A DNA stretch of 64,000 nucleotides, taken from the IMG/VR virus record IMGVR_UViG_3300035666_000015, positions 1 to 64,000 of that record; one strand, given 5' to 3'. Both the position numbers and the translations under genes were made by a program. This document shows, piece after piece, positions 712-64,000 of this stretch. The stretch is from a virus. The notes below the pieces were generated by a model. The model worked only from the letters and a program-made list of their open reading frames with translations, was not told where the DNA came from and made no database searches. Within the stretch, counting starts at the first letter, position 1, and each line of letters starts with the position of its first letter.

Positions 712-2600
712 TAGTGAGTCTCCTGCCAATTATTACCAATTTTAGAATCACCATCCATGATCTCTACACCTACCAATTTGGGACCTTCTTTGAATGCAAG
801 TTTAGCTAATCTAGCAGCTTCTTCTGCATCAGCTTCTTTCACCATAAATTGAACCTCATCGTGATACATTATCAAGGGTACATACTCTATCTTTGCTGTA
901 TCTAAGTACTCCATTAATAGCATCAAGGCTAGGCTACAAGTTATTTTTTCCAAAGATTGTAACAAGTATACTAGCAGTTTATGAGGGCTATCTACGTAAA
1001 CAGGAGCACCACTTATTGATGGTACATAGGGCTCCCCGAATTGTTTAGTGTAATTATAGGTGGACATTAATTTATTGACTAACGTTTCAAACCCTGGAAC
1101 AGCTTTTGTAAATTCAACTTTAAGTATATTACCTTGTTTTGCATTAAACGATCCAAATATGTAAGACCAAAGTTTTTTACCAGAAGCACCAAATAAGAAA
1201 GCATACAGAACCCTTTTAGCAATAGAGCGGGATACTTGATGATCAATACCCATCTTTAACAAAGCATTTGTAAGAGCTTTAGCATTGAATGTATGAATAT
1301 CACCATTCAATAACTCATGTGTGAACTCATCATTCTTTAGATAGAACGCTAAACCTCTGGCTTGATTCCCAGCTGAGTCGGCACCGATTATCTTCCAACC
1401 TTCAGGGCAGGTGAATAAGCGTCTTATTTCAGGACCCCATAAAGAAACAGATTCACCGTCATCAGTGATTTCTCCAGATGGTATATTAGCTATCAATTTA
1501 TGTCTAACACGGAAACTAGGAGTGCCAATAGTGAACACTTCGCCGTGTAGATAATCTTTTTCATCTAACGCCTCTAACCAACCAGTAAGTATAGCAAGCC
1601 GTGAATTGGTTGTTGAATACCTTCTATATAGCTGACCATGCCCACCTAGCATTTCCAGGCTTTCATCAGTTATCTTCGGAGATGTATTTACAGATTTGCC
1701 ATTAGCTTCTCTCTTTGTATTCCATTCAGTGGGAACCCAACCATTACGAAATAGAAATATTTTTACATCTGCTGGAGAGCTCAATTTCAATTCTACCAGT
1801 TCAACACGACAGTAGGGACCCTCTACTAAACGCTCTTCTCCTATTGCACCAGACCAAGGATCGACCCTAAACCACTTAGCTGTATGAGAGTCATACTCAC
1901 CTGTTTTTAACCATTTTGGTTTTTTAAAATCATCTTTAGGATCTTTATTCTTGAATCGAACACCTAATACAGGTTCTAATTCCTCTTTGATTGCCTTAGA
2001 TTCAGCACTGAGTTTTAATAAAAGAGCCTCTCCTGCTACACGATCAAATAGCCAACCATGCATACGAGCTTTTGCACACCATTCTGCTACTGCATGCTCG
2101 GCCTTCAAATGAGTACGTATCAGAGGATTTTTATGGTAAAGTATAGCATACTCTTCCATAAGTATCTTATCAACTTTAGCGTTTATTTCAGTATCAGTTA
2201 CACAGCGACTACGCATCTCAGGAGTGTATCTACTCCAGTCTTCATGCTCTTGTTTAGGCATCCCTAAATGATCACCCCAAGCTTCGAGTGAGTGTCCTTT
2301 GTCACCAAATCGTCTATAGTTCAAGATCTGTGAAAATAACAAAGTGTCTTTTAGTGCTGTTGTCTTACTTGGTCTGAATTTGAATAGTTTATATAATAGT
2401 GGTAAATCATGCCCCATTAAATTGTGACAAGATATGCTGCTTGCAGCTCTGAGATGGGGCTTCCAGCTATCATCATTATTATCAAATACTCGCAGATTAT
2501 TAGCATGTCTATCTTTTGCAACTAATATCCACATCTTACTTGCCTTTAATGCAAGATTGTCTGATTCAGTATCTATTATTAGATCCATAGAATGCGCCAT
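711..2600 (-). CDS. T7-type family A DNA polymerase with 3'-5' exonuclease domain
   Basis: Replicative polymerase of 629 aa (T7 gp5 is 704). The DEDDy-type exonuclease domain comes first: Exo I is IDTES near residue 11, Exo II is HNLMGHDLP, and Exo III is RCVTDTE. The polymerase part shows motif A (GADSAGNQARGLA), motif B (RSIAKRVLYAFLFGA, RxxxKxxxYxxxFG) and motif C (MYHDEVQF) about 50 residues from the end. In motif A the Glu of the usual S-x-x-E-x-R pattern is Gln. I choose the ATG at 2600 with GAGG 8 nt upstream; the frame also has an in-frame GTG at 2609 that overlaps this SD. It follows the DUF3310 gene by 16 nt. No helicase or primase gene is seen in the window. Confidence 0.95.
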   Translation of the reverse strand: MAHSMDLIIDTESDNLALKASKMWILVAKDRHANNLRVFDNNDDSWKPHLRAASSISCHNLMGHDLPLLYKLFKFRPSKTTALKDTLLFSQILNYRRFGDKGHSLEAWGDHLGMPKQEHEDWSRYTPEMRSRCVTDTEINAKVDKILMEEYAILYHKNPLIRTHLKAEHAVAEWCAKARMHGWLFDRVAGEALLLKLSAESKAIKEELEPVLGVRFKNKDPKDDFKKPKWLKTGEYDSHTAKWFRVDPWSGAIGEERLVEGPYCRVELVELKLSSPADVKIFLFRNGWVPTEWNTKREANGKSVNTSPKITDESLEMLGGHGQLYRRYSTTNSRLAILTGWLEALDEKDYLHGEVFTIGTPSFRVRHKLIANIPSGEITDDGESVSLWGPEIRRLFTCPEGWKIIGADSAGNQARGLAFYLKNDEFTHELLNGDIHTFNAKALTNALLKMGIDHQVSRSIAKRVLYAFLFGASGKKLWSYIFGSFNAKQGNILKVEFTKAVPGFETLVNKLMSTYNYTKQFGEPYVPSISGAPVYVDSPHKLLVYLLQSLEKITCSLALMLLMEYLDTAKIEYVPLIMYHDEVQFMVKEADAEEAARLAKLAFKEGPKLVGVEIMDGDSKIGNNWQETH

Positions 2601-2616
2601 CCGTGGCACCTCACTA

Positions 2617-3279
2617 TTACTTTTTCAAATTGTTTTCAACATAAGAAATCCAGTAGTCTAAGTACCAGCGAGATTTCTTTAATTCTTGGAGTTTGTCATC
2701 TTTACGACCTAGCCTATCAAGGTAATTCCTTACCAGAAGTTCCAGGCAAGCCTCGAATATTTCAGGATCTTTGAATCTACCGGTTCTTGAGATAGCATCA
2801 ATCCATTGTAACTCAATGCCTAGCTCTTTATCAACAAAATAGCCCTGATAATGTGCTGCTTTTGCTTTTTCATCGTAACGTGGTAAGCTATTAGTAGATA
2901 CAACGCCTTTTTCCAATGCACGCAGAAAATCTTCTTTAGACATCACAGATGCGTTTGGAGTTGTATAGTTAGTTGTAACTCCTTCTGCTACGTTTCCAGT
3001 TAATATCTTATCAGAAATATTTGGTGTAAGTTCTACAGCCTTTTTGTCTTTTATAGCTGGCCTATTTATTTCATGATTGACTGCTGCTAAGAACTCATCT
3101 AGCTGAGCCTTCGAAGTAAACACATGCTCTATGCTGGCCATATTTGTTTTTGCGCTATAGACGGCGATCAACTTACACCAAGGCCACCATTCAATCTCTT
3201 GTATCTTATCTACTCGATCAATCACACTCAGACTATCATCACCAGGTCTGTATCCGTAAATTTCAAATAGATATATCAT
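2617..3279 (-). CDS. DUF3310 (T7 gp1.7-like) domain protein
   Basis: 220 aa. The C-terminal 80 residues (HYQGYFVDKELGIE... YLDRLGRKDD...LKKSRWYLDYWI) match the pattern of DUF3310 proteins: HYQ, a conserved I/E-rich helix, K/R-x-GRKD, then LKKAxWYLD. T7 gp1.7, a nucleotide kinase, carries this domain. The N-terminal 110 residues are unlike anything I recognise. The stop of the upstream SSB gene and this start meet at 3279, so the pair is translationally coupled. The location between SSB and DNA polymerase fits a DNA-metabolism role. Kinase activity is not shown by the sequence. Confidence 0.7.
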   Translation of the reverse strand: MIYLFEIYGYRPGDDSLSVIDRVDKIQEIEWWPWCKLIAVYSAKTNMASIEHVFTSKAQLDEFLAAVNHEINRPAIKDKKAVELTPNISDKILTGNVAEGVTTNYTTPNASVMSKEDFLRALEKGVVSTNSLPRYDEKAKAAHYQGYFVDKELGIELQWIDAISRTGRFKDPEIFEACLELLVRNYLDRLGRKDDKLQELKKSRWYLDYWISYVENNLKK

Positions 3280-3785
3280 TAGTATGGTGCCTCTGCAGTA
3301 GGTGTTGTTGATTCAGTGGCAGGCTCTGCTGCAGGATTGACAACTTTTGTCTCAACTTGATCGAATTCTTCACGTTGCGAAGCTTCTTTTACAATCCAGG
3401 TTACTACTTGAATTGCTTGAAGCTGCGTAGAGATATTACCAGCGGCATTTTCCCACTGATAAATACGAACATTACAGATAGAACCGTTACCTATCCTATT
3501 TGGATCGATCGGTGTACCGTTACCATCAACCACTTCTACAGGGTCAGCAGGACCACCTTCACGCTTAGTGCAATTTTTGTATATGTTGGTTTTAAAGTAA
3601 GGATCACCATCATCTGGCACAACTGCTGTAATCTTTAGGTTTAGTGACTTCCAGTAGTCTCTTACAGCTTTGTCAGTAGTTACTAACTGTATTGACCATT
3701 TACGAGGCTCACCCTCTTTATACGGCTTAGGCAGTCTGACTGGGTCAGCTTTTACAAAATTAACGGTTACCATTTTTAAAATCAT
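3279..3785 (-). CDS. Single-stranded DNA-binding protein, T7 gp2.5/DUF2815-like
   Basis: 168 aa. The pattern is that of the phage gp2.5 OB-fold family: an N-terminal LPKPYKEGEPRKWSIQL strand, a central DPVEVVDGNGTPIDPNRIGNGS segment seen with variations in the family, then long beta strands (VRIYQWENAAG... LQAIQVVTW). The C-terminus is Pro/Thr/Glu-rich and ends in an aromatic (APY). This recalls, in weaker form, the acidic tail and terminal Phe that let T7 gp2.5 contact polymerase and helicase. Start ATG at 3785 has AGGA 7 nt upstream. Placement next to the DNA polymerase supports the call. Confidence 0.75.
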   Translation of the reverse strand: MILKMVTVNFVKADPVRLPKPYKEGEPRKWSIQLVTTDKAVRDYWKSLNLKITAVVPDDGDPYFKTNIYKNCTKREGGPADPVEVVDGNGTPIDPNRIGNGSICNVRIYQWENAAGNISTQLQAIQVVTWIVKEASQREEFDQVETKVVNPAAEPATESTTPTAEAPY

Positions 3786-3788
3786 AAT

Positions 3789-4148
3789 TTATCCTATATT
3801 GGCGAGTTTGTCAAGTATTTGTTTATTCCAACAGGACTTAGGCACATAATATGAGCTACCACCTGCATTGTTCGTTATGTTTACAATTAATAGCATATCT
3901 TCTGCAATCAATTCGCAAACATCGAAATCACCTGTGCTTTCAAACAAAGACTTGCTATCATCAAAGTCTGAATCATACACGGTTATTTGTTTAAGATCTT
4001 CTTCGGTCTCAATTAGGCATATCGGGCCTCCTACATCTTGTGTGTAATTTTTGATCTTTACGTCATCATTGTCCATCTTCAGTACATCTTGGATTACAGA
4101 ATCGTAACCACAATCAACCAACTCTTCAGGTGTATTGAATATCTTCAT
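3789..4148 (-). CDS. Hypothetical acidic protein, 119 aa
   Basis: Not recognised. Strongly acidic (many Asp/Glu, DNDDVKIKN, YDSDFDDSK), no membrane segment. Its ATG overlaps the stop of the RNA polymerase gene by four bases (ATGA), so its translation should be coupled to the polymerase. An acidic partner of the polymerase or of DNA-binding neighbours is possible, but this is guesswork from position and charge. Confidence 0.75.
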   Translation of the reverse strand: MKIFNTPEELVDCGYDSVIQDVLKMDNDDVKIKNYTQDVGGPICLIETEEDLKQITVYDSDFDDSKSLFESTGDFDVCELIAEDMLLIVNITNNAGGSSYYVPKSCWNKQILDKLANIG

Positions 4149-4807
4149 AAGAATGCGTACTCCGATTTATGTATGCTATTTAAGTCTAGCGTACCCTTGG
4201 GAACTTCTAAGTCATTCACACCAATCTGTTGCATAAATTCATTCATATCAGTGGTTTCATAGATTTCAACGAAAGTCTTCCTAACTAATTTATATAGAGC
4301 ATCCATATCTCCTAGCAAGGAACCAAAACTATCATGAACGGTTGTTACTTCAAATGGTGCATAATTGGTTACCAGGCATACATGAAGCGCATCAAAAGAA
4401 TGTACTACATTAGGAGCTACTCCACAGCTTTGTCTACCCTTAGCAAACGATAAATCTTCAGTATAACATAAATTTAGTTGTAGTGTACGCCCACGATATC
4501 TTATGTTTGTCTTTTTAACAGTACCTTCTACATAGTATTGTATTACAGGAAATCTGCTTATCGGCATTTCCCATTGAAGATACTTATTCTGTTTATCAGC
4601 ACGCTTTCCAGCTATTTCAAAGATTTCCAACATTCTCATTGGGTTCTTTATACAGTTTCTAGCTGTTTCATAATTGAGTCTACCTAGATATGCACCCCAA
4701 CTATGCTCCAAATCCATCAGAAGAGGTATCCCTGATTTCTTGGCATCTTCAATCATTTGATTCCCCATTCCATATGCTGTGGCACCGTAGGGAATTGTCA
4801 TAACATT
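4145..4807 (-). CDS. Single-subunit RNA polymerase, exon 2 (motifs B and C)
   Basis: C-terminal 220 residues of the polymerase begun at 6471. It opens with the second half of motif B (NVMTIPYG; Tyr is residue 478 of the joined protein), includes the conserved APNVVHSFDALHV helix and ends after motif C VHDSFG (catalytic Asp about residue 630). The 3' splice site follows G4808; the first exon bases pair with the first intron bases (P10, AUGUUA with UAACAU). An ORF caller would start this piece at a TTG at 4810, but there is no ribosome site there, so it is an exon rather than a gene. The stop overlaps the next ATG. Confidence 0.92.
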   Translation of the reverse strand, partial: NVMTIPYGATAYGMGNQMIEDAKKSGIPLLMDLEHSWGAYLGRLNYETARNCIKNPMRMLEIFEIAGKRADKQNKYLQWEMPISRFPVIQYYVEGTVKKTNIRYRGRTLQLNLCYTEDLSFAKGRQSCGVAPNVVHSFDALHVCLVTNYAPFEVTTVHDSFGSLLGDMDALYKLVRKTFVEIYETTDMNEFMQQIGVNDLEVPKGTLDLNSIHKSEYAFL

Positions 4808-5058
4808 CAAATTGTTAATACTGCTCGTTAGGCAGCATCAATTTAGTATACAAAACTAAATTGCTATGCATCACTGCATAGATCAGACTATATCATCACT
4901 ACATATTATCAGTAGGCAGGGCGCTTCGGACACACTTGCATCCTACTTCCTTTCGGAATAGTCGTTGCACCTTCTAATGTATTTCTACAAAAGCTTGGCT
5001 CAGGATTGTCTCATAGAGATATTTCCTGAATTCACCCTGTTTTAAAAGCGCCATGTTA
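4808..5058 (-). ncRNA. Group I self-splicing intron in the RNA polymerase gene
   Basis: 251 nt, no ORF. The core elements read, on the minus strand: P (GAATTCAGGAAA, near 5030), Q (AATCCTGAGCCAAGC, near 5000), R (GGTGCAACGACTA, near 4967) and S (GATGATATAGTCTGA, near 4890). P1 can be drawn exactly: 5' exon AAAGCGU pairs with internal guide GGCGCUUU, with the splice-site U.G wobble. The intron ends in G4808. Splicing joins Lys-Arg to Asn-Val-Met inside motif B. Subgroup IA-like by its core sequences. Confidence 0.93.
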
Positions 5059-6471
5059 ACGCTTTATTATCTTTCTACGTTCCTTATGACTGGTTACGCG
5101 ATTCCAGAAATACGGGGCAGCAATGCTCAAAAGATTTGCATGTTTCTTCCTGAACGCTTTTAATACATCTAAGTCATCCAGTTTCTTAACCTCCAATAAA
5201 TCATCAATAAGTTTCTCTATATCTTCTAGTGGATACTTGCAAGTGTGAGAGAGCTCTTCCCACACATGTTCAGCCACATAAGCATATAGATCGCCAGGTA
5301 ATGCACTAGGAGTCAAATTCACATAAGGAGCCATCAATCTATCACGAGTCATGGCTGTAAGATGTTGACACCCATTAGTAGAACCATCCATCCATCCAAC
5401 CATATGACTCACATAACCGTAGTCAGAAAAGTCCTGAAGCTTAGCTTGATATACTCTCAGATTAAACAGATCGATACAATAAGCTAGGAATTGCCACGGC
5501 TCGTCAGCCGCCATCCAGCCTTGATTCTTTCTAGGATCTTCTGCAAATGATAGGAATGCTGTTTCATTATCCTCTGCCCACGCCCATCTCAATTCACGAG
5601 GTAACTTATCTGTCTTTGTTTCACCATCATAATTACCAGCGTAGGTTGTGGCTAGCATATGTAATAACCATCTATAGCCACCGAAACCTATCGGTGTTCC
5701 CTCGCTTCTTAGTAGAAGTGCTTTAGCGAAATCAGTCCCCTGCTCATGTAAGTAAGCTGAAGCTGGATAACGTCTACCTCTAAAATCATAATAATACTCA
5801 TGATAGAAGGTATCACTACCAAACTGTTCACTCATTGCTAATAGTAACTCAACTTCTCTTTGCTTTGACTCCTTTGCCTGTCCTTTTCGTTCCCAGACAT
5901 CATCAAAGGCAGCTTTCTTTCTTGTGAGGGCCCACTTGCCTATCCTCATAATAGCTGTGTTTATTTTCCATCCTGTTCTTTGTGCACGATTGACAGAATT
6001 GAACACCATTGGGTGTGTAGTATTGGACATGAAATACCCCATATATTCGGAGTGTATTAGCTTTTCATGACCCATTATCGCTTCCTCCCAATCTCTGAAT
6101 GGCAATTTTGAAGGTATTTTACCAACAGAGTGTACGGGGACTTGCTTCCAGAGGTAATTCAAGAAAGGTTTATCTTCAATCTTAACTAGATACGCCTGGT
6201 GACCGGAGTAACCTGCACCTAGAAATACTGAGATAACTTTATGATCCTCTAGGACAGAAGCAATATCTGCACCTAATTGAGCAGCCTTTGCAGAGTCGCG
6301 TGGACCCTTCATTGCTGCTGAACCAACAGCGGTTATAAACTCAGAAAAGTACGGACACCCTTTTGGCTTAGGCTGACCATACAAATATACTGCTTTTACT
6401 ATTTTTATGAAGTTTTCAGTTCCAAATGGGGCCAATGCTTTTAGAAGCATTTCTTTGGCTCTATGACTCAT
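5059..6471 (-). CDS. T7-family single-subunit RNA polymerase, exon 1
   Basis: Residues 1-471 of a 691-aa DNA-dependent RNA polymerase. Visible motifs are DFRGR (residues 229-233, the T/DxxGR motif), motif A WMDGSTNGCQH (Asp 362) and the first half of motif B, R466xxxK470. The rest is in exon 2. T7 RNAP has 883 residues; about 190 are missing at the N-terminus, the promoter-binding and exit-channel part. The total is close to the combined length of the two N4 RNAP II subunits as I recall it. An in-frame TGA two codons upstream of ATG 6471 rules out an extension in this frame. The ATG overlaps the stop of a 34-aa membrane peptide. Likely the middle/late polymerase of the phage. Confidence 0.93.
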
Positions 6472-33980: not shown

Positions 33981-34231
33981 CGTATGTTCGCATTAACTCG
34001 CTACGTTAATACCGAATCCTCATAAAAATAGAAAATTCTGCTCTATATTCCTACAGAGTTCGGACTATATCTTGCGCAATTGCGCTCCCGCGCTTCCCAG
34101 ATGCTATCTGGTACGTCTTTCGACTAGTCTCTACACCTTCAAGATATCATTAACGATATCTAGCTTGGCTCGGTATTGTCCGTTCTGGATATCCACCGAA
34201 TTCACGGGATTTTAGAAGACCCAATTTGTCA
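33981..34231 (-). ncRNA. Group I intron 3 in the MuF-RNA polymerase gene
   Basis: 251 nt, no ORF. P (GTGAATTCGGTGGA), Q (ACAATACCGAGCCAAGC), R (GGTGTAGAGACTA), S (AAGATATAGTCCGA) are all present in order. P1: exon GAAGGCU with guide GGGUCUUC, ending in the U.G wobble; P10 CAA with UUG. It joins Lys-Ala to Gln-Asn-Met in motif B, the same site as the intron at 4808-5058. Confidence 0.93.
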
Positions 34232-34388
34232 AGCCTTCGCAGCCTTCCTGAGATCAATCTCAGTTAAGCCAAATCTTTCATTCATCTTTTTGAAACGAGG
34301 ATCGTTAAATGTTAATCTAGCGATCTCATCATACCCTTTTGTTATACGTTCGCCCAGTTTTTTCCAATCCGTATTTGGTAAATAGTCC
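34232..34388 (-). CDS. MuF-RNA polymerase fusion, exon 3 (motif B start)
   Basis: About 52 residues: DYLPNTDWKKLGER... then ...LTEIDLRKAAKA, ending with motif B R1084xxxK1088. The 5' end is assigned by frame: the joint to exon 2 must add one base, and the site must follow a G. Position 34388 fits, 34364 is an alternative that removes eight residues. The first 23-47 nt overlap the end of the HNH gene in another frame. Confidence 0.82.
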
Positions 34389-34992
34389 CGCTGTTACACC
34401 CAAATAGATTGGCGATTTCTCTGTCACTTACGCAACTCTCAATTAACGATTTAATCTTAACAACGTCTTCCCTACACAATTTAGGTCTGTTATCACGTAG
34501 CGGTGGGAGAGCACACAAGGGCTCTACATGTTTCCAAGCTCTACCAACTCTAATATTAGAAATTGTCCCTACACTGACACATAATGTATCTGCTAAACTC
34601 TGGGGACCAGCACCCTCTAGAAGCGCTAACTTGATCTCAGAAACCAATGCTTCATCGAGCTTGGCGTGTTTCATCTTTGATCCCCGCTGCATTAATCCTG
34701 TATCATATGCATGTTGCGTATTAGCGGAAGCGGTGCACCATTCTAGATTGTCAGCGTTATTATTTAGCTTGTTTCCGTCTAGATGATTTACATAAGGTAG
34801 CTTCTGTGGGTTGTCACAATAAAGGGTAGCTACCATCCGATGTACTCTGAATGATTCTTTGAGATAAGAGTCATATAAGCAGAGGTATCCTCCTTGATTC
34901 TTGAAAGTCTTCCGCACCTTATTTGTTGTTAAGTTTATAACAGTTCCATCTTTCGACACCCCGTATGGTGTATCTAAGTACTGCTTTGGCAT
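34342..34992 (-). CDS. HNH homing endonuclease in intron 2, with tandem HTH repeats
   Basis: 216 aa from the ATG at 34992 (TGGAGCATTT upstream; an ATG at 35007 has no SD). The N-terminal NUMOD4-like part is followed by an HNH core: FRVHRMVATLYC, LPYVNHLDGNKLNNNADNLEW. Two copies of a helix-turn-helix then end IRVGRAWKHV and IRIGKNWANV. It would cut intronless alleles and spread the intron. Its stop codon lies beyond the 3' splice site, inside exon 3. Confidence 0.9.
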   Translation of the reverse strand: MPKQYLDTPYGVSKDGTVINLTTNKVRKTFKNQGGYLCLYDSYLKESFRVHRMVATLYCDNPQKLPYVNHLDGNKLNNNADNLEWCTASANTQHAYDTGLMQRGSKMKHAKLDEALVSEIKLALLEGAGPQSLADTLCVSVGTISNIRVGRAWKHVEPLCALPPLRDNRPKLCREDVVKIKSLIESCVSDREIANLFGCNSGTIYQIRIGKNWANV

Positions 34993-35205
34993 AAATGCTC
35001 CAGTCATGTATTGAGAATTCTCATAGTTACCTATAAGATCAGACTATATCTTACGTCCGTGTTCCCGTGTTTCGAATCACATGGATCCTACGTATTTCTA
35101 CTAGTCGTTGCACTACTCTTCATGCACATCTTGTGCGAATAGCTCAGTATTGTCCACTAGGGAGTTCCACTGAATTAACGGGATTTATAGAGACCATATA
35201 TGTTT
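34389..35205 (-). ncRNA. Group I intron 2 in the MuF-RNA polymerase gene, HNH-bearing
   Basis: About 817 nt. Core: P (TTAATTCAGTGGAA), Q (ACAATACTGAGC), R (GTGCAACGACTA), S (AAGATATAGTCTGA), all between 35010 and 35180; the HNH gene lies downstream of S. P1: exon AGAGGCU with guide GGUCUCU and U.G at the cut. It interrupts the gene about 29 residues after the motif A aspartate. The 3' end is less certain (34389 or 34365). Confidence 0.9.
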
Positions 35206-35712
35206 AGCCTCTGTTTCTGAGAAGTAGGAACCACATTGCTCAATTCAGCTAACTTCTTATTTCTAGTAGTTATCGCAATAATCTGAGCGCCTGATGATGA
35301 GGCATCTTGCTCAAGAGCTAATGAAGTCATGTACTCAGATAACGTTTCCAGATTCTTTTTAGAGTATGGAGTATTTAGATTCTTAGATTTTAGATACGAA
35401 TCTATTTTAGTAGTTTCGATAGCTAATCTAAAGAATTTACCAAGCTCCTCTCCTTCAATCTTTTTAACAACATCGTTATCAAGCAATTCACGAATATCTT
35501 GAGGCTTGCCTCTAAGTGCTTTGCTACCTATCGACACAAGAGTCTCCCGCCACTTATCAGCGATCTTCTGTCTACCAGTAACAGATAATGAGTTGTAGGC
35601 ACCTTCAAAATCAGTACTAAGACCTCCTAAGAATCCACCAACTTGATCATTAAAATTCTTGAAAGCCTTTACACTGAATGCTTTTGGTTTTTCAGTATTT
35701 AAGAATGGTCTA
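35206..35712 (-). CDS. MuF-RNA polymerase fusion, exon 2 (motif A)
   Basis: 169 residues. Begins RPFLNTEKPKAFSVKAF and ends with motif A and its follow-on, LALEQDASSSGAQIIAITTRNKKLAELSNVVP. The catalytic Asp is about residue 1004; T7 has DGSCSGIQHFSAMLRD here. The open frame extends upstream past the GTG at 35537 without an SD to the splice site, which supports exon status. Confidence 0.9.
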
Positions 35713-36675
35713 CGTATTGTTAAGTGTGCTTCGTTACTTCACACCTTTATTTTAAGTTATGTTTTTCCAAGTCTTACCTTGAATTATTGCTGAAACTGTA
35801 CCACTATGCACTTCAAAGGTGCGTCCTAATTCTGATAAGGAGTAACCTTTTGCATAAAGTCTTTTGATTTCTCGGACTTCTGCAGCTACTAATTTTGGCT
35901 CGTTTTTATTAGGACTCTCAGGAATAGAGATTCCTGGTAACACATGCTTCCAAGTCTTACGATCTCTTATTTTTGAAATAGTGCCTCGTACTACAGGATA
36001 AAATTGTGCAATTTCTGAATTAGTACGTCCATCTATCATTTCGAAAATTATTTCGGACACTAGTTCTTCGTCTAATTTAGCAATTACACACTCACTTCCA
36101 ACATGCATACATCCATTAGCCCAAGCATGCTCCATATTTTCGACATGAGTAATAATCTCTAAGTTTGAACTAGCATTATTACGCTTATCAGTATCTATGT
36201 GATTCACCTCACCTACTGCTGCGGGTAAGTGGCACTCAGCGACTAAAGCATGTACTTTAAATGTGTATTGTATTTTATTAATCCATAATGAAACTTTGAG
36301 GTACCCGTGGCCATCATCAGATGGCTTAAGGATTCGACCCGTTGTCATACGTCTAACGCTACCAGTATCACTTACTTCATAATCTGTATCTCTAAACTGT
36401 TTCCAGTCGATCATCTTCGTACCTTATGTTCTTAAAATAAATCTATATGTCACCATATAGTCCAGACTATATCATCATCCATTAAAGGATGTTGGGCATT
36501 TCGAGCAGACTTCTGCTCTACAGACTTCATCATCCGTTCTGGATGGTATGTCTTAGTCGTTGAACCTTCTAAGAGATTCCTCTCTAAGCTTGGCTGCTGA
36601 TTGTCTCATAGAGATTTTCCAGCAATTAACCCAATTATTCGATATGCATTACTGCATAAAGCGTCTATTTAACTA
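35713..36675 (-). ncRNA. Group I intron 1 in the MuF-RNA polymerase gene, HNH-bearing
   Basis: 963 nt. P (GTTAATTGCTGGAAAA), Q (ACAATCAGCAGCCAAGC), R (GGTTCAACGACTA), S (GATGATATAGTCTGG) lie between 36460 and 36640, followed by the HNH gene. P1 needs one bulged C: exon AAACGUU with guide GACGCUUU. The proposed joint gives ...GPQSGETF-RPFLNTE.... It lies about 17 residues after the DxxxR motif. Confidence 0.88.
35752..36414 (-). CDS. HNH homing endonuclease in intron 1, with tandem HTH repeats
   Basis: 220 aa; ATG 36414 has AAGGT upstream. NUMOD4-like start (WKQFRDTDYEVSDTGSVRR), HNH core (FKVHALVAECHLP, GEVNHIDTDKRNNASSNLEI), then two HTH units ending IRDRKTWKHV and IIQGKTWKNIT. Same architecture as the intron 2 enzyme, so the two are paralogues, but only this one ends before its 3' splice site. 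Confidence 0.9.
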   Translation of the reverse strand: MIDWKQFRDTDYEVSDTGSVRRMTTGRILKPSDDGHGYLKVSLWINKIQYTFKVHALVAECHLPAAVGEVNHIDTDKRNNASSNLEIITHVENMEHAWANGCMHVGSECVIAKLDEELVSEIIFEMIDGRTNSEIAQFYPVVRGTISKIRDRKTWKHVLPGISIPESPNKNEPKLVAAEVREIKRLYAKGYSLSELGRTFEVHSGTVSAIIQGKTWKNIT

Positions 36676-39278
36676 AACGTTTCACCACTTTGTGGACCTA
36701 TAAAACCACGCTCATAAATACGAGCACGATGATCGAGGAAGGGAACGTTGCTGAATGCAGCATCTTGTTTACGGAGCCACTCCATCGTTTTGAAACGCTC
36801 ATAAGCATCCCCACGCTCTGCAATAAAATGTTTGAACTCGTTAAGATCATCATAATACTTTGCCTTACCCTTGTCATCTTTAAAATTCAACAAATTTTGA
36901 GTAAAATCATAGAAGTCTTTGTCAATTTTATATCGAGTCTTGCTAGCCCAATTCAAGGCCTGTGCCATATCCTTGTCAATAACATCTACAGGGAACTCAG
37001 AAAAAGAGCCAGTTGATGTCACAGGAATTCTGGAGTCTTCCCACCCTAAGAGACCGTTATCAATAAAGTACGTCTTATAACCAGGTCTTACAATTAGCTG
37101 TGGACCACTCAAAGATGGCACGCGCATTCCAACATCAATCTTTCTTTGCAGCTTGGAATATTCTTGAATCACCGGATCCGTGATCCTTACATTATATGCC
37201 ATCGTGTCATAGTATGGTCCAAAATAGCTACCAGACATTCGACTCTTCATTCTACGCTTCTGAACCCCAAACGTTTCCAATTGAAATAAATCATTGTTAC
37301 GTTTAAGGAGCGACATACCTAGCTCATACCATTCCCGTCGGTTGCCATTGTAGTTTGCTAGATTATGTAAGTCTCTACCAAGTCCAACAGCCAATTGATC
37401 GACATCAGGAGAATCTGCCAGAGCAAGCCTGTGTGCAAACTTCAAATAAAATTGTTGAATCTCACCCTCACCTAGCCTAGAACGAATCTTGTCAGGTATG
37501 CCTATGTCTAATGTAGATCGTAGCTTCCTAGCAATCTTTGGGGCGGTACTGTCTTCCCAAGTATTTCTAGCACGTATATTCTTGATAAGAGAGTCATGCA
37601 ATTCTTTCAACTGCACATTACCTAGCACAGGATCAATATATACATCTTGTTTTAACTTTACAAGAACGTTTGTATCTTTCCGCAGTTGATTCTCCAGAAA
37701 CTCTGAAGCATTCAATACATCATATTTGACTTGAGCAACAGAGGCACCTTTAAACGAACCCCAAACTTGACCATCTCTGCGTTGTCTTTCAAACACAGTT
37801 CTCAAGTTGTCAACAACGACAGCACGCTCGTTAGAGCTCATCTTGCTCTCAAGACTATCACTTACGCGTTTTATTAACGCCTTATCAGCAGTTTTCAAAT
37901 CCTCAGATGAATCAACCAACTTTAATTTATTGGTTAGTAGTGACGGATTTGGAAGATATCTTCGATTGTCTTCATATCGTCCAGTTACGGGATTAAATAC
38001 CAGATTCTGTTCAGATGGTGGACTGTTTATCACTCGATCTTTATTCGCTTTTTTACTAGAGATCAATTGACCACGGTAGTTTGTGAGACTCAATAAACCA
38101 TCAGCTTCTCTAGATTGCAACTCGTAAAAATCAATAAGATTCTTTTCAAGAGAAGGATCACTATAAAAATCATCCACACGAGACGCACCTAAGTTTAGCT
38201 GAGCGAGTTTCTGCTTTGCATTGGCTAATCTCTTAGTATCACCTGGCAAAGTTGAATCACTTAGCTGTCTCACCTCAGCAAGACTGGCAAAATCACCGTC
38301 TTCTAAAATAAACCGATCCAATGAGATAGCTTTGCTATTAAATAGTGCAACTCTTTCATCAGTTTTCAAGTGGCGCTTCTGTATCTCAACAGGTTGTCGT
38401 CTGAGCCATTCATCATAAGACTCGCGCATTGGAGTCTGTCCATCGTAGAAGGCTCTTTGCTTACTAGAAAGTTTTGCTAAGTTTTGTTTTCTTACTTGAA
38501 CTACACCTTCTAACTTTGAAACATCTTCCCACTTCTTGATTATCGGTGTAGTTACAGAGCGACATCTGAAGTGAGCAGGAGGCAGCATATCTCGCTGATC
38601 TACAGTGTATATCTTACCATCTCTAGCCTTACAAATATCGCTTGTCCTTGAATCAAGCACAGCAATATATTGCCAACCTTCAAGCACCTCTTTATTCGCC
38701 ACAAAGACTGCGTGGTCTGCTTGAGCATGCACACTGGTCATTGCTGTTATCACTAAAGATTGGGAGCTATTTCTAGAAATCTTATGAACATTCCCACGTC
38801 TAATTTCAAGAGCAATCTGCTCCATATCAAGACCTTCCGAGATACCTCTTCTTATTATCTGCTCTAGACGACGCTTCTCTGCTACATTCAAACCCACCCA
38901 TCCAGCAGCAAGGGTCATGTTATTGTAGATCGGTGTTTTTAGCACTAACTCTTCAGCTACCCGCTTCTTAGGGCGATTGGTTCTCCAGATACGGCCTACA
39001 TTTGCGTCTAAAGCTTGAAACAAGAAAGAAACTTCGTCAAGTGCATACTCAATGAGATTCTTTTTACTATTCTGATAGAGCTCGTTATACGTAGCATCGA
39101 GCTCTTCTTTCAATAACTTCTTTTGATTTTTTAATGAACTGTTTAATACGATTTCCTTTGTACGTACCTCATGCTCACTAAGCAGGGTGTTTAGGTTAGA
39201 CATCAGACCATCCTCGTAACGGCGCAGCAATGCTGCACGTTCTGTCAAGGTGTCTGATATCTGAGTATTTACATTCAT
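36676..39278 (-). CDS. MuF head protein fused to single-subunit RNA polymerase, exon 1
   Basis: Residues 1-867 of a protein of about 1,572. Residues 120-250 form a MuF/SPP1 gp7-type minor head domain: SVHAQADHAVF, then WQYIAVLDSRTSDICKARDGKIY, PPAHFRCRSVTTP. MuF proteins enter the procapsid with the portal and are ejected with DNA. The region from about 550 on is the N-terminal part of an RNA polymerase, ending at DHRARIY (residues 849-855), the counterpart of T7 DWRGRVY. ATG 39278 overlaps the portal stop (ATGA), placing this gene firmly in the head module. The simplest reading is a virion RNA polymerase carried into the cell by MuF. Confidence 0.9.
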
Positions 39279-61820: not shown

Positions 61821-62710
61821 TTAACGAATAGGACAAGCGCCTTTTTCGCAATCTTCCGCAGCCAACTCTTCTTCAACACAAGTTGGTACTGAGTTAATCA
61901 CGCGTGTACTTGCTACAAGCTTATTATATGCCTCTTCTGATATTTCTTCATAAGGAGCTTGAAGGAAACCATGATCAGAATGCAGCATAAAACTAACAGT
62001 TTTTATACCATTAGTGTAATTCTTTTCCAGATACGAGCGTATGGCTGGTAATTCTTCCGGCTTATAATACACAGTACAAGACACTGAATTATCAGACCAA
62101 TTGGCTTGTAAGCGACTGATCATTTCCAACTGTTTAATAGCTGTGACATCTCTTGCCAGAACCGTACCATCCGGATATCTGAAAGGAAATGTAACAACAC
62201 AAGTACCATAATTCAAACTACCGTCGAAATTCTTAGCGAACTCGACCGGATAACCATGATCAGTACAAGTTGTTACTAACGGATGTTCAGCAGCTATCCG
62301 TATCCTTCTTAGCATAAACTGAGCAAATCCAGGATGGATACCGGGGGTAACACCGGGCAGTAATGATAAGGTACCACTAGGTTTTACAGTTGTCAGTTTG
62401 ATACTAGTAGGCCAACCACGTAATGCTGAGTATTCTTCATCAGTTGTACGTAGGAACTCGTAAGCTTCATTCAACCAACCCATCTGTAAGTCAGAAGCTT
62501 GACAAATACCAGTTAATCCAATACCCATCCTCAAATTACGATGTACAACTTCTTCTGTTTCTTTCTGATGGCTGCTTAACATCAGACTGTGTTTATTTAA
62601 TCGATAAACCAGCTGGGATATATCAAGGAACTCACCCAAACTAGTAATAGCTGGAAGATTAATATCTGCTAGGCAGCATGTTTCAAAATCTTCCAAACTT
62701 TGTTCTGCAC
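61821..62710 (-). CDS. Class II ribonucleotide reductase, exon 2
   Basis: About 296 residues. Opens with the last two bases of the radical-Cys codon, then AEQSLEDFETCCLADI. Later TTVKPSGTLSLLPGVTPGIHPGF (the substrate-binding PSGT loop) and a C-terminal DCEKGACPIR Cys pair that would pass electrons from thioredoxin. The motif set is that of adenosylcobalamin-dependent RTPR/NrdJ enzymes. The frame start at 62696 is an internal Leu codon without SD. Confidence 0.92.
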
Positions 62711-62766
62711 CATTTTGTTCAACACGATTCGCTAATTCGTGCCCGTCTTTCGACTGCTACATATCA

Positions 62767-62979
62767 CTATGCAGATCGGACTATATCATCTTGTGACGCG
62801 CTTCCACCCGCTTGGGTGTACTCTACTCTTCTACGATTTGAGTTCTCTAAAAAGTCTGCCCAGGTGTCATTGCCGTCACCATTACAATGGGTACAGTAGA
62901 TTACACCGTCTCCTGGTTTAGGCTGTTTTACTTTGGGATCTTTTCCCGTACCACTACAGTTTGGGCATATACTTCTCAT
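62767..62979 (-). CDS. Intron-borne zinc-knuckle protein, 70 aa
   Basis: ATG 62979 with AGGAG 8 nt upstream. ICPNCSGTG...YCTHCNGDG: two CxxCxGxG knuckles. The C-terminus QDDIVRSA is encoded by the conserved S element of the intron core itself. No HNH, GIY-YIG or LAGLIDADG motif. Confidence 0.7.
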   Translation of the reverse strand: MRSICPNCSGTGKDPKVKQPKPGDGVIYCTHCNGDGNDTWADFLENSNRRRVEYTQAGGSASQDDIVRSA

Positions 62980-63018
62980 TAACACTCTCCTATAGAATTT
63001 CGATAGTCTCTACACTTT

Positions 63019-63306
63019 CTAAACCCGCCAAGGTTTCTGTTTTAACTTAAATCTTTTGTTATTAGCTCGTGAGCGTGTTCCATCTAAATATGTCACATTT
63101 GCTGTATCGTTATCCGAAAGTGATTTAGACACTTTGGCATAACGAACACTCTGAATGAATCTGAATTTAAAACCATCATCATCAAATAATGTATCAGAGA
63201 TGTTTAGAACTATGTTTATAAAGTCACCTGTAAGCCGACTCCTCATAAGAGAGCCTACAGCTGGTTGAGTATTTATAGGTGTTTGTTTAAAAATCACTTG
63301 ACGCAT
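63019..63306 (-). CDS. Intron-borne hypothetical protein, 95 aa
   Basis: ATG 63306 with AGAGGAG upstream. Not recognised; basic C-terminus (TRSRANNKRFKLKQKPWRV). It occupies the loop between Q and R and stops just before R. Could be a splicing cofactor, a degenerate endonuclease or a freeloader. Confidence 0.65.
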   Translation of the reverse strand: MRQVIFKQTPINTQPAVGSLMRSRLTGDFINIVLNISDTLFDDDGFKFRFIQSVRYAKVSKSLSDNDTANVTYLDGTRSRANNKRFKLKQKPWRV

Positions 63307-63429
63307 TTATGACACTCCTCTAGTAGTCATGTCAGTTAATATACAACTTGGCGGGTCTAGCTTAGCTCGGGATTGCCTACGTGAGGTGTTCCCCGAATTC
63401 ACGTCATTTTAAATCCGCCTGCTAGTGAA

Positions 63430-64000
63430 ACGGATTATATCCAACTACTTTTGGATCAGGATATCTAGTATCACCTAATCTACCAACTTTTCTAGAGAGT
63501 TCTGGGTTTATCAGACCATAACACTCTCCATTGCCTTTATAGCCTTCCCAGAAGTATTCGTGCAAATCCTCTAGATCGCTACAAGCAACACTGTTATTAC
63601 TCATAGCGCGCCAAGGTGGAATATTGCCTAAGTCCCAACGTTTGGCCAACAAATATTCAATATCATCAGGATCACCAATGCACAACAAAGCAGATCGCCT
63701 AACGTTGCCTGCAACTATTATTGCAGCAATGATATTCATGACATCCAAACAATCGATAGGCCTTACACTACGACCGCGACGTTTCATCAAGACTTCTGAA
63801 ATTTGCTGAAGACCTCTGCATAAATCTTCAGGCCCAGAAGCCACCCCGCCAAATCCTTTGATTGGTGTACCTTTACCACGTATAGCTTGTGTTGAGTACG
63901 TAAAGGTTCCCTTCTCAGCAGAATCACTCAAGAAAGCTGCTTTCAGGGTCTTACCTAAGAACCTTACCCAACCCTCACGCGAGTCTGGTATGATGAAATC
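63430..64000 (-). CDS. Class II ribonucleotide reductase, exon 1, partial (N-terminus off the right edge)
   Basis: 190 residues, open through the right edge: the frame still reads IIPDSREGWVRFLGKTLKAAF at base 64000, so the TTG at 63931 is internal. Visible are GTPIKGFGGVASGP, MNIIAAIIVAGNVRRSALL and WRAMSNNSVACSD, characteristic of B12-dependent reductases. Ends GYNP plus the first base of the catalytic Cys codon. Supplies deoxynucleotides for phage replication. Confidence 0.92.

Follow-up and report, generated by a model that had tools for sequence, protein, structure and literature searches.

A class II reductase gene split at its radical cysteine codon

The window analysed here (bases 1 to 64,000 of a virus record of 69,540 bases) carries on its minus strand a class II ribonucleotide reductase gene, nrdJ, that is divided into two exons around one intron. 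Exon 1 fills 63430..64000 of the window and starts past its end, at contig position 64468; it contributes 346 codons plus the T of a cysteine codon and matches the RNR-II insertion domain (PF21995, E 9e-12) as well as phrog_367 (E 3e-34). Exon 2 (61821..62710), which also has Pfam and PHROG matches, starts with GT GCA GAA and ends at the stop codon. Joining AAT CCG T to GT GCA GAA yields an intact NrdJ of 642 aa with a restored NPCAE motif, and the exon junction predicted after ligation reads AATCCGTGTGCAGAA. In a phmmer search of solved structures, this protein matches the Lactobacillus leichmannii enzyme (1L1L) with an E value of 1e-68, its NPCAE aligned to NPCGE and its Cys347 to Cys408 (counted back from alignment residue 421), and both the NPCxE radical cysteine and the homology along the enzyme to 1L1L place it in class II. 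In class II reductases, this cysteine carries the thiyl radical. The initial annotation had equated the residue with C408, had proposed that splicing rebuilds its TGT codon and had argued that the enzyme would lack its catalytic residue without splicing; all three points hold at the level of the predicted products, as the unspliced frame of exon 1 continues with NPFH into a stop codon and would give a 348-aa protein without the cysteine. Both exons are fully open and keep their conserved residues, and the same intron allele occurs in two further contigs, at 99.99% identity across the 7 kb that we compared. Upstream of nrdJ, a primase-helicase gene (L005 3972-6599, minus strand; contig 65471-68098) is interrupted by an intein that has Hint and LAGLIDADG domains.

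The intron itself (62711..63429, minus strand) is a group I intron of an IA-like subgroup, 719 nt long and without P2 or P8; the range of 62709-63431 given in the initial annotation is this element plus flanking exon bases. P1 (63412..63436) forms where the annotation had put it, at AAUCCGU (63436-63430), which pairs with intron GCGGAUU (63418-63412) in 7/7 positions including the terminal U.G at the 5' splice site. The 5' strand of P3 (UGACGU, 63401..63406) pairs with GCGUCA at 62799-62794 and is followed by P4 (UCGGGG/UCCCGA) and P5 (CCU/AGG) within 63367..63396. P6a (63019..63360) consists of CUAGACCCGCCAAG (63360-63347) and CUUGGCGGGUUUAG (63032-63019), 14 pairs that were read directly from the sequence, and its loop L6 houses a first open reading frame, ORF1, whose stop codon is the end of the P6a 3' strand. 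The 5' strand of P7 (GACUA, 63004..63008) pairs with UAGUC at 62783-62779; a P7.2 hairpin (CACCC AAGC GGGUG, 62805..62818) is conserved in the covariance-model alignment described below. The stretch 62784..62799 runs from P3' (GCGUCA, 62799-62794) into CAAG AUGAUA, the place of the absent P8, and the intron ends with the P9 hairpin (CUGCAU ... AUGUAG, 62757..62774), P9.1 (GUC GAAA GAC) and P9.2 (CACGA ... UCGUG; together 62723..62754) and the omega G as its final base (62711). A different P7 5' strand, GACATGACTA near 63330, would have put both reading frames of the intron into one loop and was dropped after comparison with the related introns of phages L083 and L084, which places P7 5' at GUGUAGAGACUA and ORF1 in L6. 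Among other phage group I introns, those of L095, L096, L097, L101, L102, L106 and L107 have 4-5 bases from P3' to J8/7 and no P8.

Helices P3, P4, P5, P7, P7.2, P9, P9.1 and P9.2 pair fully in all eight introns compared, and 30-81% of pairs remain after strand swaps between these introns, in which P7 does not vary; the strands were hand-picked to pair, but they lie beside conserved motifs that fix their position. For P3, 48/48 native pairs compare with 60% after the swaps.

Filled and empty versions of one insertion site

In about 40 relatives, no intron interrupts the reading frame at the site, and the intronless sequence matches the joined exons; intronless NrdJ homologues at 64-69% identity are likewise continuous there. 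We scanned viral contigs for an intron 3' end followed by TGY GCN GAR CAR and obtained 26 stretches, nearly all flanked on either side by nrdJ exons, that represent 16 distinct introns at the cysteine codon once copies are merged. These introns share not only the codon but also one junction rule: where the preceding proline codon is CCG (10/10), exon 1 ends in CCG T and exon 2 starts with GY, where it is CCT (6/6), exon 1 ends in CCT and exon 2 starts with TGY, and exon 1 ends in T and the intron in G in 16/16. As read from these alignments, the junction tracks the exon U, and the choice of CCG or CCT shifts the predicted splice point by one base; both intron ends move together, and the mRNA is therefore the same. 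The junction of the initial annotation, with exon 1 ending at T 63430 and exon 2 starting with GT at 62710, agrees with all 16 introns, a comparison of sequences that backs it much better than P1 alone. A scan of bacterial genomes for this junction yielded 15 stretches; nearly all look like chance matches, and in none was a reductase recognised. In a spread sample of 50 of the 1189 cultured phage records with NrdJ relatives, no record had an intron at this position, and the few NrdJ matches in two pieces include one gene annotated as containing an intein.

Fourteen-odd lineages thus have the site in common and differ in the intron that occupies it. Class A comprises 13 distinct introns with a 208-aa LAGLIDADG protein (PF03161, E 4e-18), class B the other three (that of the window, that shared by L083 and L084, and that of L088), which lack P2 and any recognisable endonuclease. 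Median BLAST scores are 198 bits within class A, 159 bits within class B and 0 between the classes, with cross matches mostly limited to the P7'-P9 stretch. Judged by FastTree topology alone, the class B members do not form one group on the NrdJ tree, and two sister phages whose DNA near the end of exon 1 is 92% identical carry introns of different classes (L080 class A, L083 class B). Between phage L052 (class A) and the intronless L014, identity is 95.7% on the downstream side of the site and 79% on its upstream side, a boundary that looks like the trace of homing-associated recombination; the jump in identity falls exactly at the intron site (L052 near 5018-5854, L014 3066-3088). Occupied and empty alleles of one site in relatives are what a mobile intron would leave behind, and we infer that the introns move, although the other hallmark of a mobile intron, an encoded homing endonuclease, has no counterpart among the protein families detected in the two reading frames of the window's intron.

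Several of these nrdJ genes hold other insertions. That of L080 (1389-7043) combines its class A intron with two inteins, one after NVRR and one beside the second conserved cysteine (ETC), and is directly preceded by an HNH/AP2 gene of which L083 and L084 keep a remnant. The nrdJ gene of L064 (1194-5111) has two in-frame inteins, one within the LNNC region and the other immediately following the conserved ELCC, and that of L078 (reverse complement, near 2537-3621) has a further insertion of ca. 1.1 kb at residue 459.

Intron cargo, group I identity and alternative readings

The window's intron contains two reading frames. ORF1 (63019..63306, minus strand; 95 aa) has an AGGAG ribosome-binding site just upstream and belongs to no Pfam family. 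ORF2 (62767..62985, minus strand; 72 aa from a GTG, with an ATG at 62979) lies in L7.1, encodes a zinc-finger-like CxxCxGxG and continues through P7.2, P3', J8/7 and P7' to a stop codon in P9; its match to the DnaJ central domain falls under the Pfam cut-off. Two ORFs of this length arose in 0 of 5000 Markov-simulated introns, and both are probably translated, though such putative ORFs might be non-coding. Relatives of ORF1 are found in L020, an intronless phage in which a gene of 144 aa immediately follows nrdJ (phmmer E 2e-4), in L078, and in L133 as a free-standing gene of 119 aa. ORF2 has a weak similarity (E 0.005) to a zinc-finger gene that lies 1.7 kb downstream; in cultured phages, neither ORF had a match. 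Cargo varies across class B: the 235-nt intron of L084 has a P8, a closed P6a hairpin and no ORF, the 518-nt intron of L083 is nearly the same intron with a gene for a YunG-like phage protein (PF24591) in its P6a loop, and that of L088 has a different small ORF in the P6a loop. On these comparisons, the simplest reading is that intron loops have captured genes of the neighbourhood.

With high confidence, although from sequence comparison, we interpret the element as a self-splicing, IA-like group I intron inserted after the first base of the radical cysteine's TGT codon, at a site that introns of classes A and B appear to have colonised recurrently and where the window's intron carries small phage genes. 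The intron would fold on exon 1 via P1, the RNA would be cut behind the U that takes part in the U.G pair, exon 1 would be joined to exon 2 at the terminal G, and splicing, which we expect to take place in vivo, would restore NPCAE and with it an active NrdJ, while unspliced mRNA would yield only the fragment of 348 aa without the cysteine. Two unrelated introns would have colonised the site, of which class A encodes a LAGLIDADG endonuclease and class B none that is recognisable, and the class B intron of the window holds two small and otherwise ordinary phage genes in its P6a and P7.1 loops. The cysteine codon would be a recurrent target because the surrounding DNA can hardly change.

Alternatively, ORF1 or ORF2 could be a new homing nuclease or maturase and the element an ordinary mobile intron, given that phage intron ORFs are usually endonucleases and that a CxxC zinc finger can bind DNA. 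We consider this unlikely, as searches of Pfam, PHROG and cultured phages found no nuclease motif or family in either ORF, relatives of ORF1 stand free in phages, once directly after an intronless nrdJ, and the ORFs of class B differ from one intron to the next or are missing altogether.

The group I assignment of the initial annotation withstands scrutiny even though Rfam at its gathering threshold found two other introns over the window and missed this one. A permissive search with RF00028 gave it 21.3 bits against a 50-bit cut-off and aligned only its 3' end; the low score is due to the long ORFs in L6 and L7.1 and to the lack of P8. Since the intron fell below the Rfam threshold, we built our own covariance model from the 3' domain of 11 other phage introns, leaving the nrdJ intron out. 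Its best match in the window is 62823-62716 (107.5 bits, E 5.7e-26), with the place of P8 as the only notable gap in the alignment, and the same model found no match in 17 intronless nrdJ loci. The intron thus has P1 with its U.G, the omega G and the core of P3, P4, P5, P6 and P7, and lacks P8 and a curated RF00028 score of at least 50 bits. A P8-less form with a short P3'-J8/7 segment occurs in at least five other phage intron lineages with intact core; we therefore regard the loss of P8 as a natural variant and not as proof of decay, and did not treat it as decisive, although it could weaken splicing. That the element is a degenerate, non-splicing remnant that has lost its endonuclease and P8, with nrdJ a pseudogene in this phage, is hence very improbable: the subthreshold Rfam score, the missing P8 and the lack of an endonuclease ORF would fit it, but all other core helices pair, the 3' domain scores highly, P8 is dispensed with elsewhere, both exons are open with conserved residues kept, and two further contigs carry the same, nearly unchanged allele.

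We see next to no chance that the junction lies elsewhere or that an intein or programmed translational bypass accounts for the insertion: nothing was found in favour beyond the general ability of short repeats to move a junction by one base, an intein is ruled out by the in-frame stop three codons in, and the 16 concordant introns, the U.G at the 5' site, the G at the 3' site and the match of joined exons to intronless sequence all speak against it.

Other group I introns lie in the window as well. One at 4864-5118 (minus strand, 74.5 bits) splits a T7-like RNA polymerase gene into ORFs at 5056-6471 and 4145-4810, both matching PF00940, and three more (36443-36685, 35020-35216 and 34041-34292) lie in or beside one large protein gene region (33985-36685, minus strand) that also contains HNH_3 ORFs at 35752-36414 and 34342-35007.

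Relation to known introns and significance

By BLAST and covariance model, the closest 3' domains are those of the DNA polymerase introns of T7-like and N4-like phages and of the phiTE terminase intron (RF00028), which share the core architecture of the nrdJ intron. Those examined sit in other genes and carry HNH endonucleases, whereas the nrdJ intron has no HNH gene, two other ORFs and no P8. Reductase genes are the nucleotide-metabolism genes most often split by introns in phages (PMC3653736), and introns or endonuclease insertions are on record in nrdB and nrdD of T4, nrdE of Twort, nrdE/nrdF of SPbeta and nrdA of Aeh1 (PMC3653736, PMC2988022); these also lie beside functionally critical residues, but the genes belong to class I or III. 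For nrdJ, the split phage genes on record are only those of phiYS40 and P60, and neither is described as an intron case (PMC3653736). Nearest in position are the introns that immediately follow the NLC codon, which corresponds in class I to the radical cysteine, in Staphylococcus phage SEP9 and Pseudomonas phage SPA01; that of SPA01 encodes a class A-like LAGLIDADG ORF and that of SEP9 an annotated endonuclease, but they are inserted two bases further on and in a class I enzyme. Group I introns favour conserved sites (PMC2814812), and endonuclease targets often span active-site codons (PMC2988022). Our search of the literature, which covered few subscription journals, found no paper on introns at the class II radical cysteine codon or on cargo other than endonucleases. 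That introns interrupt reductase genes at essential residues was already known, and the new parts are the occupancy of one site by two classes, the gene cargo and the absent P8; the two unrelated classes, the two non-endonuclease ORFs and the missing P8 also go beyond the initial annotation.

In collaborative homing, an endonuclease-free intron is moved by a free-standing endonuclease (PMC2988022, PMC3984707), and the nrdJ intron resembles such cases in lacking an endonuclease of its own at a site targeted by another element. A free-standing gene for a SegE-like GIY-YIG endonuclease (PF19835) lies 3.6 kb upstream of nrdJ (L005 6587-7063, minus strand; contig 68086-68562), and by analogy its product is a candidate partner for the intron. 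More speculatively, class B introns may be carriers that, sheltered in an indispensable codon, pick up small neighbouring genes into their loops and swap them between phages; because ORF2 overlaps P3', P7' and P9, folding of the intron may in addition control translation, a possibility that we put forward tentatively.

The site offers a clean example from nature of competition between two unrelated introns for a codon that cannot be lost, and close relatives represent all three allele types (empty, class A and class B). It also lends itself well to testing how a group I intron reads its exon, because a synonymous change between CCG and CCT moves the predicted splice point and leaves the protein unchanged. 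Group I introns have been divided into those with ORFs that act as homing endonucleases and those without ORFs (PMC3984707); the class B introns fit neither category, and endonuclease-free introns with phage genes call this split between homing-enzyme introns and empty ones into question.
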